Notes under the pieces: model-generated
The model's database searches: none
What the model was told of the DNA's origin: nothing
The model's input: only the letters and a program-made list of their open reading frames with translations
Assembly (NCBI RefSeq): GCF_014672835.1
Contig: NZ_CP060244.1
Coordinates: 2,087,001 to 2,151,000 of the forward strand
Source of the DNA: Entomobacter blattae
Lineage (GTDB): Bacteria; Pseudomonadota; Alphaproteobacteria; Acetobacterales; Acetobacteraceae
DNA length: 64,000 bases
Reading direction: 5' to 3'
Translations under genes and position numbers: made by a program
In this document: piece by piece, positions 54,156-57,549 of the stretch
Numbering within the stretch: the stretch's first letter is position 1
Layout: each line of letters starts with the position of its first letter

Positions 54156-54273
54156 ATTAGCAGCAATAGGATATAGGGGGATACGGTGTGCAATACTCAT
54201 GGACAAAACAAACACGCTTTAAAATTGTTTCTTTTGAATCATTAATAAACCATCCCTTATCCAACGTATACAA

Positions 54274-54432
54274 AAATATGGCTTCTACATCTTCTCCAGC
54301 CTTTAAAGCCACATGTGCAATATCTTGTACAAACTGCTGAAAGGTTTTATTTCTGGCTACAAAATCTGTTTCAGCGTTCACTTCTACCATCGCCGCACTA
54401 TTTTCTGGAGTATTACACCAAGCTTCCACGCC
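54274..54432 (-). pseudogene. tsf relic: internal piece of elongation factor Ts
   Basis: About 50 codons match the start of the EF-Ts core domain: [19 protein letters not shown], then [20 protein letters not shown]. The N-terminal UBA-like domain and everything after the first subdomain are missing; the frame then runs on in unrelated sequence to 54157. A GTG at 54429 keeps it open, but a 50-residue piece cannot act as the exchange factor. It lies two codons past the recR stop and in the same frame. Confidence 0.88.
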
Positions 54433-55515: not shown

Positions 55516-57549
55516 TTAAAGAGTTTTAGTATTTTCCTCAAAAAATAGTTCCTCCTCGTCTATTTCTTCTCCCTCATCTCTTTCTATATAAGGATCTGCC
55601 AAATCATCCATAATCACTTCTGCTTCGTCTTGTTGAGGTAAACCGTAACTATCCAGGGAATGATCTGTAACAGTTTTTATCATTGCCCCAGGAAAAACTG
55701 TCATAATTTCCTTAACCAAGGGATTTTCTTCTACCTCAAGGCGAATTTGTTGCTCTACAGCCCTTTCCTGTTCTGCAAGAGTGGGCTCTCCCTGCTGGGT
55801 GGAGACCACAACTGACCAAACTAAGGAGGTTTCTTCATTCAATATCTCCCGCAATTTTTGGGGAATATCCCTTGGGGCAGACGCATCTAGGCTGATCTCT
55901 AGCACTGGGGGAGCTAAACGTACCAGCCTTACATCATGACGTAAATGCCCATGTAGACGCCCTACGCCTTTTTTTTTTGTTAGGGCTACAACATCCCGCC
56001 AGCTTCTCGGAGGAGAAGAAGGTTTTGGCACCTCACCTTCCGACATTTCTTGAGAAGGCTCCGGCCCCTCTTTTTTTTCCTCCTCTGTTTTTCCTTCATC
56101 TGGAACCTTCTCTTCCTGCTCCAAGACAATCTTTTGAATATCCTTGGTTGGAAGAGTTTCCAACTCTGAAGAGAGCGTCTCTTCCTTGGGAATATCCTTC
56201 GCCTGTAAGTCTTGAGTGAAAGAGGGCGCTAGATTTTTTTTTTCACTTGCCTTATCCGCAGGGGATAGCACTGAAGATGCAAAATGATGAGGGGGAGTTT
56301 TATCCTCACTGACCGACGGAGGCCTGAGAGACATTTTTTCTATCACCTCTGCCGGGGAAGGAAGATCTGCCAGATAACATAAGCGCAGAAGAACCATTTC
56401 TGCAGCAGCCTTTCTATCCGGTGAAAGATCAACCTCTGCAAGCCCCTTAAGCACCACCTGCCAACTGCGGGCTAATACCGGAACACTAAGCTTTTCTGCT
56501 AACACGCCCCCCCGTGTTCGCTCAAGCTCCGAGAGCTCGGCACTTTCCTTTAAGACCGGCAGCGCTTGAAGGCGAGAAATCAGATGAATAACCTCCAGTA
56601 AATCCGAAAGAACAACACTAAAATCTGCTCCCAAACGATAGGCCTGCTCAGTCAATGTTAACAACTGGTCTGGTCTTCCAGAAAAAGCCGCCTCCAGAAT
56701 ATCAAATACCAAAACCTGATCCACCAAACCCAGCATTTCAGAAACAGACTGGGCCTGAACAAGCGTTTTTCCCTCTATTTTTCCCTCATGACCAGAAGAA
56801 TTTTCTTCAACTCTTCCCTGTGCAATAGCCTGATCAAGCAAGGAGAGGCCATCTCGAACGGAACCATCGGCAGCGCGAGCAATCATGGCAAGGGCATCGG
56901 GTTCTATGCCAATGCCTTCCTGTTGGGCAAGGGAAGCAAAATGAGCAATCAACCTTTCCTGCGAGACCCTTTTCAAGTCAAAACGCTGGCAACGGGATAA
57001 AATGGTTAAAGGCACTTTCCGCAGTTCTGTCGTCGCAAAAATAAACGTAACCTGAGCAGGAGGTTCCTCCAGGGTTTTCAGTAAAGCATTAAAGGCATTG
57101 CGGGAAAGCATATGCACTTCATCGATAATAAAAACCTTCATCCTTCCTTGTAAGGGACGGAAACGACTGGATTCTATTATTTCACGAATGTCATCCACCC
57201 CAGTATGAGAGGCTGCGTCAATTTCTAATACATCTGGATGGCGGTCTGCCAATATGGCTTTACAGTTGTGGCATACTCCACACGGGTCAGCTGTAGGGCC
57301 CCCTTGACCATCTACCCCTGTACAATTCAGCGCACGCGCTAAAATACGGGCTGAGGTGGTCTTCCCTACTCCTCTTACGCCGGTTAGCATAAAAGCGTGG
57401 GCCACCCGTTGCATGGCAAAGGCATTCCGTAAAATATGAACGGTTACTTCCTGCCCGATTAGGTCATCAAAGACCTTGGGGCGATATTTGCGGGCCAGAA
57501 CCTGGTAATGCCGGTTTTTGGAAGGTGAAAACTCTACCTGTTCGCTCAA
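55516..57549 (-). CDS. dnaX: DNA polymerase III subunits tau/gamma
   Basis: The clamp-loader ATPase and replisome organiser, 677 aa. AAA+ domain: Walker A GVRGVGKTTSA (about residue 59), zinc cysteines in CGVCHNC, Walker B VFIIDEVHML and sensor ILSRCQRFD. Domain III ends near residue 400. A Pro/Glu/Lys-rich linker follows to about 515, then the tau-specific C-terminal domain (SWRDVVALTKKKGVGRLHGHL). The linker region carries two A10 tracts in the coding strand (56243-56234 and 55978-55969) and one A8. Losing one A at the first gives a stop after about 439 aa, close to E. coli gamma (431 aa). Confidence 0.97.
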   Translation of the reverse strand: MSEQVEFSPSKNRHYQVLARKYRPKVFDDLIGQEVTVHILRNAFAMQRVAHAFMLTGVRGVGKTTSARILARALNCTGVDGQGGPTADPCGVCHNCKAILADRHPDVLEIDAASHTGVDDIREIIESSRFRPLQGRMKVFIIDEVHMLSRNAFNALLKTLEEPPAQVTFIFATTELRKVPLTILSRCQRFDLKRVSQERLIAHFASLAQQEGIGIEPDALAMIARAADGSVRDGLSLLDQAIAQGRVEENSSGHEGKIEGKTLVQAQSVSEMLGLVDQVLVFDILEAAFSGRPDQLLTLTEQAYRLGADFSVVLSDLLEVIHLISRLQALPVLKESAELSELERTRGGVLAEKLSVPVLARSWQVVLKGLAEVDLSPDRKAAAEMVLLRLCYLADLPSPAEVIEKMSLRPPSVSEDKTPPHHFASSVLSPADKASEKKNLAPSFTQDLQAKDIPKEETLSSELETLPTKDIQKIVLEQEEKVPDEGKTEEEKKEGPEPSQEMSEGEVPKPSSPPRSWRDVVALTKKKGVGRLHGHLRHDVRLVRLAPPVLEISLDASAPRDIPQKLREILNEETSLVWSVVVSTQQGEPTLAEQERAVEQQIRLEVEENPLVKEIMTVFPGAMIKTVTDHSLDSYGLPQQDEAEVIMDDLADPYIERDEGEEIDEEELFFEENTKTL
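55969..55978 (-). other. A10 homopolymer in dnaX (tract 2)
   Basis: Ten consecutive A residues in the coding strand form the end of ACA and three AAA codons (Thr-Lys-Lys-Lys, about residues 524-527) at the start of the C-terminal domain. With nine A the frame reads on to GCG TAG and stops at once. With eleven A, or a -1 ribosomal slip, it stops after about 11 further codons. Either would remove the tau-specific domain. Confidence 0.75.
56234..56243 (-). other. A10 homopolymer in dnaX (tract 1)
   Basis: Ten A residues in the coding strand span GAA AAA AAA AAT (Glu-Lys-Lys-Asn, about residues 436-439) at the beginning of the linker after domain III. Nine A would give GAA AAA AAA ATC TAG, ending the protein at about 439 residues. 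This is the position where a gamma-like product would be expected to end. Confidence 0.75.

Follow-up and report, generated by a model that had tools for sequence, protein, structure and literature searches.

The gene described here is dnaX, which encodes the gamma/tau subunit of DNA polymerase III. It lies on the minus strand at 55516..57549 of the window, by which we mean the whole stretch of 64,000 nucleotides that was analyzed, positions 2087001-2151000 of the single 2,701,842-base contig that makes up the genome of Entomobacter blattae, an acetic acid bacterium of the Acetobacteraceae. The open reading frame begins with TTG and encodes 677 amino acids, matching the NCBIfam model NF006585 over its full length (754.9 bits against a cut-off of 604, E 6.9e-227). 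Pfam recognizes PF13177, PF22608, PF12169 and PF12362 in the protein, which cover AAA+ domains, domain III and a tau-specific domain. Domain III (PF12169) spans residues 264-405 (56335..56760, minus strand), and the tau-specific C-terminal domain (PF12362, DUF3646) spans residues 514-627 (55669..56010, minus strand). Tau is read in a single uninterrupted frame, free of internal stops and open through all three of the A-runs described below, its C-terminal part in the same frame as its N-terminal part; this is not a dnaX of the two-ORF type.

A run scan, followed by a check of the frame, places three runs of A in the sense strand of the gene. The first, of ten A, occupies codons 436-439 (GAA AAA AAA AAT; 56234..56243, minus strand) in the linker; a run of eight follows at codons 491-494 (56071..56078, minus strand), directly abutted by an AGGAGG that was noticed by eye; and the second run of ten takes up codons 524-527 (ACA AAA AAA AAA; 55969..55978, minus strand). 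Both A10 runs lie 3' of domain III, which ends at residue 405. The preliminary description of this DNA had placed two A10 runs at exactly these positions and codons, and there it was right. It had also pictured them as flanking the linker, but the second sits inside PF12362, and it had passed over the A8 run altogether.

What would happen to the protein if transcripts gained or lost a single A can be computed from the frames. Loss of one A at the first A10 run is predicted to bring in a TAG after one codon (56229..56231, minus strand) and so to yield a protein of 439 amino acids, the length that the preliminary description had given; one A more would let translation run on for 45 codons, to a 484-residue end that it had missed. 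The A8 run would give 520 residues with one A fewer and 505 with one A more. At the second A10 run, the loss would lead to a TAG after two codons (55962..55964, minus strand; 528 residues) and the gain to a stop after 11 codons (538 residues), both much as had been anticipated. Residues 1-405, comprising the AAA+ motor and domain III, are kept in every one of these predicted products, and the tau domain is truncated in some and lost in others, so that most or all of it goes. E. coli gamma is 431 residues long, and the predicted 439-residue product would therefore be gamma-sized, from the same kind of gene.

Thermus thermophilus is reported to make its gamma by slippage on an A9 run in dnaX (PMC1088944, PMC5009743), with stops nearby in both alternative frames (PMC5009743). 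Like the window gene, Thermus dnaX encodes tau in a single ORF, carries its long A-run 3' of the clamp-loader domains and gives a shorter protein when an A is lost or gained, an outcome that is a prediction in our case; the slipped RNA and the 1:1 ratio of products belong to Thermus. The window gene differs in having two A10 runs and an A8, in the 45 codons that separate the first run from its stop when an A is gained and in the absence of its runs from the relatives examined. One could nevertheless suppose programmed transcriptional slippage of the Thermus type, with the runs selected for a substantial and defined gamma:tau ratio. A single-ORF tau with A-runs 3' of domain III fits such a scheme, and so do the stops one and two codons beyond the A10 runs after loss of an A, since a stop within one codon follows only 6.1% of the 264 mid-gene runs of six or more A in our sample, dnaX included. 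Among the 23 runs of eight or more A, however, again with dnaX included, the same early stop is commoner, at 18%. Gain of an A fits less well: the 11 codons of the second run are ordinary (median 10 for mid-gene runs of six or more A), but the frame that stays open for 45 codons after the first is long, 96% of such runs meeting a stop within that distance, and this counts against occasional transcriptional slippage as well as against a programmed form of it. Taking these points with the comparisons below, we regard selection for a defined ratio as improbable.

Ribosomes could also be responsible, if they shift -1 or slide while translating the A-runs, in which case the short forms would have 484 or 538 residues. 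In-frame A_AAA_AAA heptamers are present in all three runs, and sliding of ribosomes on iterated AAA codons has been reported (PMC4363877). Against this, the only in-frame heptamers are A_AAA_AAA and A_AAA_AAT, and none of the dnaX runs holds an in-frame A_AAA_AAG, described as more prone to shifting in E. coli (PMC5009743); furthermore, a search for a stimulatory RNA structure found that the 60 nt 3' of each run fold like their shuffles (z -0.03, -0.72 and -0.01). The window gene thus departs from the E. coli one both in its heptamers and in having no stem-loop beyond what shuffled sequence gives, and its 439-residue product would need one A lost, the opposite of the -1 shift used in E. coli. 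Ribosomal recoding strikes us as a poor prospect for this gene.

How unusual the runs are depends on the genome in which they sit. In all, it contains ten A10 runs, each exactly ten long and none longer, nine of them in coding frames as sense-strand A and one (L004) outside any open frame. Six of the nine coding runs are near a gene end, four of these near the start (L005, L006, L008 and L013; in L005 and L008 the open frame extends beyond the retrieved stretch and the placement comes from one of two inspections) and two near the stop (20 codons upstream in L009 and 17 in L012). Three are mid-gene, and two of those three are in dnaX. The only other mid-gene A10 is in a trehalose-phosphatase gene (PF02358; L007, G000:C1:743529-743538). 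On the assumption of 2.2 Mb of coding sequence, the probability that at least two of nine coding A10 runs would fall in dnaX is 0.007-0.008, a point in favor of programming of the Thermus type.

Across 337,620 nt of other genes, taken from the window and from twenty 20-kb stretches with dnaX excluded, there is no run of ten or more A or T, against 7.1 expected from plain codon usage or 9.3 from codon context, and A9 and T9 together occur five times against 11.6 or 12.5 expected. Runs of eight show no overall depletion: there are 39 of A and 22 of T, where the whole sample would be expected to hold about 26 and 25. Across the full window, too, A8 is unremarkable, with 27 matches (overlaps included) where 20.6 would be expected. 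Long runs look to have been purged from the sampled genes from about nine or ten upward. This fits a report that the coding sequence of AT-rich genomes avoids slippery runs (PMC1088944), although the depletion could reflect slippage in DNA replication instead of transcription. Runs of nine are nonetheless not rare inside the genes of this genome: among the 30 inspected of 56 places with exactly nine, seven are sense A and six sense T and lie 30 codons or more away from either end of the open frame, in a tally that includes some short and doubtful called frames.

These numbers bear on the simplest alternative of all, that the runs are an accident of a Lys/Glu-rich linker written in AAA-biased codons, with slippage negligible and without a role. 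AAA makes up 67% of lysine codons in a 464-kb sample of the genome, whose GC content is 45.5%, and when dnaX is resampled synonymously, with the protein and genome codon usage held fixed, at least one A10 turns up in 34-37% of trials. The lysine-rich linker accounts, then, for part of the excess of runs in dnaX. Two A10 runs, on the other hand, turn up in only 2.3-2.7% of trials, the other sampled genes have no runs of ten or more, and ten A exceeds the length at which slippage is reported (PMC6260861). The occurrence of A9 inside other genes and the lack of a structural stimulator speak for chance, as does the lack of conservation described below. Because the chance tests were framed after the runs had been seen, they are suggestive and not proof of selection; we think an accident unlikely, though it deserves to be taken seriously. 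A scan for tRNA genes, confined to the 20 stretches, found no tRNA-Lys in them.

No other genome is available from the genus, so a recent gain of the runs is possible. The comparison extends over dnaX genes of more distant relatives, with strand and frame set by homology search; 110 of 112 loci were read, followed by nine and then 27 more. This made a pool of 146 loci and 130 distinct sequences (127 with a stop), a few pairs of which represent a single gene whose reading began at different starts. Nearly all come from the family, with at least one outsider: L032 is from a class-mate outside it and L107 from a Rhodospirillales MAG whose family is not stated. Each sequence was scanned from the start of the match, which leaves up to about 14 first codons unscanned. 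None of the 130 distinct sequences has a run of nine or more A in the scanned part of dnaX, and the longest sense run is eight, in two sequences. The preliminary description had looked to relatives for conservation of run length, and in these sequences there is none.

Even the low-GC genus of the family (that of G269, with nine genomes), whose DnaX N-terminal part is 67-72% identical to ours, reaches A8 at most. In one of its genes, L133, the site aligns without gaps and has the same lysine triplet, SWREILAFVKKK against SWRDVVALTKKK, coded AAA AAG AAG. Synonymous AAG interruptions of this sort were what the preliminary description had itself named as telling against its idea. A DNA search with the 3' part of dnaX matched four of 397 family genomes, itself included; of the other three matches, L124 (G269) is dnaX, while L125 and L126 have no DnaX N-terminal match. 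As far as sampled, the runs are lineage-specific, since they are absent from the 130 sequences and L133 codes the same three lysines with AAG. This is as chance would have it, and it counts against a programmed Thermus-type system.

The explanation we prefer lies between accident and program. Slippage by the RNA polymerase of enterobacteria has been reported on runs of at least nine A or T (PMC6260861), and it is plausible in dnaX because ten A exceeds that length; slippage by the E. coli enzyme is described as low and more frequent on T than on A, with 0.39% insertion at A7 (PMC6260861). In other respects, we suggest, this is an ordinary single-ORF dnaX, whose two A10 runs are lineage-specific sites prone to slippage; on them RNA polymerase would gain or lose an A in a minority of transcripts to leave A9 or A11. 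Normal translation of these transcripts would then produce DnaX of about 439, 484, 528 or 538 residues, short forms in which the clamp-loader motor and domain III would still be present and a working tau domain missing. Such a gamma-like product may be tolerated, and possibly useful, which would let the runs survive where other sampled genes have none of their length; the survival of two runs in one essential gene would be expected if cutting DnaX short at these points is harmless or useful. For a minority gamma-like DnaX made in this way we put the chances at about even. That slippage occurs, how often it does so and whether the short proteins are stable and used are matters we infer, and programming of the slippage is a further, unproven step. 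Run length, predicted products and depletion elsewhere thus speak for the slippage that the preliminary description proposed, and its expectations of conservation and uniqueness fail. The preliminary observation holds and is moderately unusual; the mechanism is plausible and unproven. Phase variation by slippage of the DNA itself seemed less likely, since, as we reason, loss of the tau domain, once fixed in an essential gene, should not persist.

Short DnaX need not come from slippage at all. Caulobacter crescentus, also an alphaproteobacterium, has short forms of DnaX that matter, and they are reported to be made by ClpXP proteolysis (PMC5422525). By analogy, partial proteolysis of tau by ClpXP could give Entomobacter a gamma-like DnaX to which the A-runs would be irrelevant. 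The precedent is from the same class, but processing in Caulobacter is reported to be species-constrained (PMC5422525), and we are inclined to doubt that it operates here. If slippage on the A10 runs is real, an alphaproteobacterium would be making a short clamp-loader form by means other than the protease route of Caulobacter, and the question of why bacteria reach short DnaX by different routes would become testable.

The preliminary description went on to suggest that slippage here would be the third independent appearance of the mechanism, and that claim has to be given up. A GeneTack survey from 2013 reports 17 two-ORF dnaX genes in 12 genera (A10 in nine of them, A7-A9 in three), for which it proposes slippage in transcription (PMC3711429); Blochmannia dnaX is described as having a homopolymer frameshift that is maybe corrected by slippage (PMC3017870). 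The two-ORF genes share with ours a poly-A run near the gamma/tau boundary and differ in that their tau needs a frameshift, whereas tau is the unslipped product of the window gene. If slippage does take place in it, the window dnaX adds to a set of poly-A-recoded dnaX genes that is already known. Among literature titles and the opening lines of abstracts, we recognized no report of dnaX slippage in alphaproteobacteria or acetic acid bacteria, though one may exist in print.

Poly-A junctions in dnaX also turn up closer to home, in another order of the class. In the order of the class-mate G040, 17 genomes were searched and 15 match the N-terminal part of DnaX strongly (L217-L231); G424 and G429 (63% and 82% complete) gave weak matches and were left out. 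The N-terminal frame is short in all 15, at 401-429 residues, and always ends just 3' of an A9 or A10 run, the stop beginning four bases after the run in 14 and ten bases after it in G436. All 14 genomes with a C-terminal match have the tau part in the -1 frame (for example, L170 nt 772-2480), with PF12362 confirmed by Pfam in that frame in G040 only. The phase of the run at its 3' end is shared by 14 of 14, the last codons being AAA AAA AAG, and with such an ending either transcriptional slippage or -1 ribosomal frameshifting could make tau. Close pairs of C-terminal frames differ most at third positions (one pair, for example, has 13 changes there against 7 at first and 2 at second positions), and since changes concentrate there, the tau part is probably made and under selection. 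To judge from its frames, dnaX in this order is of the two-ORF type described in PMC3711429, and its tau would need recoding.

These junctions, which are fixed among the genomes sampled from another order, lend some weight to a Thermus-type program in our gene, and they make the stronger natural case of the two, because full-length tau cannot be read there without recoding. It is conceivable that the Entomobacter lineage recently evolved a slippage-made gamma-like DnaX at its two A10 sites, independently of this second alphaproteobacterial order with its tau-recoding A9/A10 junction. We hold that larger proposal to be rather unlikely; if true, dnaX of the class entered poly-A recoding at least twice, and in opposite polarity.

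A survey of class-mates took in 20 loci from 24 genomes, of which 19 were read (L182 gave no match), and four of the 19 dnaX genes have A9 or longer (L167, L170, L172 and L186), two with a gene GC content near 30%. The wider survey of the class is of best matches only and gives no class-wide count of two-ORF dnaX; among those matches, a short dnaX frame in G536 was rejected, since it ends at the contig end. L167 (G037:C48) is a single-ORF dnaX with A9 and A8 at codons 430 and 446, close to where the tau part begins, and with alternative-frame stops 2-9 codons away, which makes it a possible second Thermus-like candidate in an order represented by one genome. L172 (G043:C10), a dnaX of 29% GC, has A11 at codon 132, within the ATPase part, and A10 at codon 541, within the tau part, in an open frame.

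One last observation concerns a neighbor in the window. Directly 3' of recR, at 54157-54429 on the minus strand, there is a frame of 90 residues that matches PF00889 (EF-Ts; E 2.9e-12) over only the first 58 of its 204 positions and looks like a partial copy of tsf.
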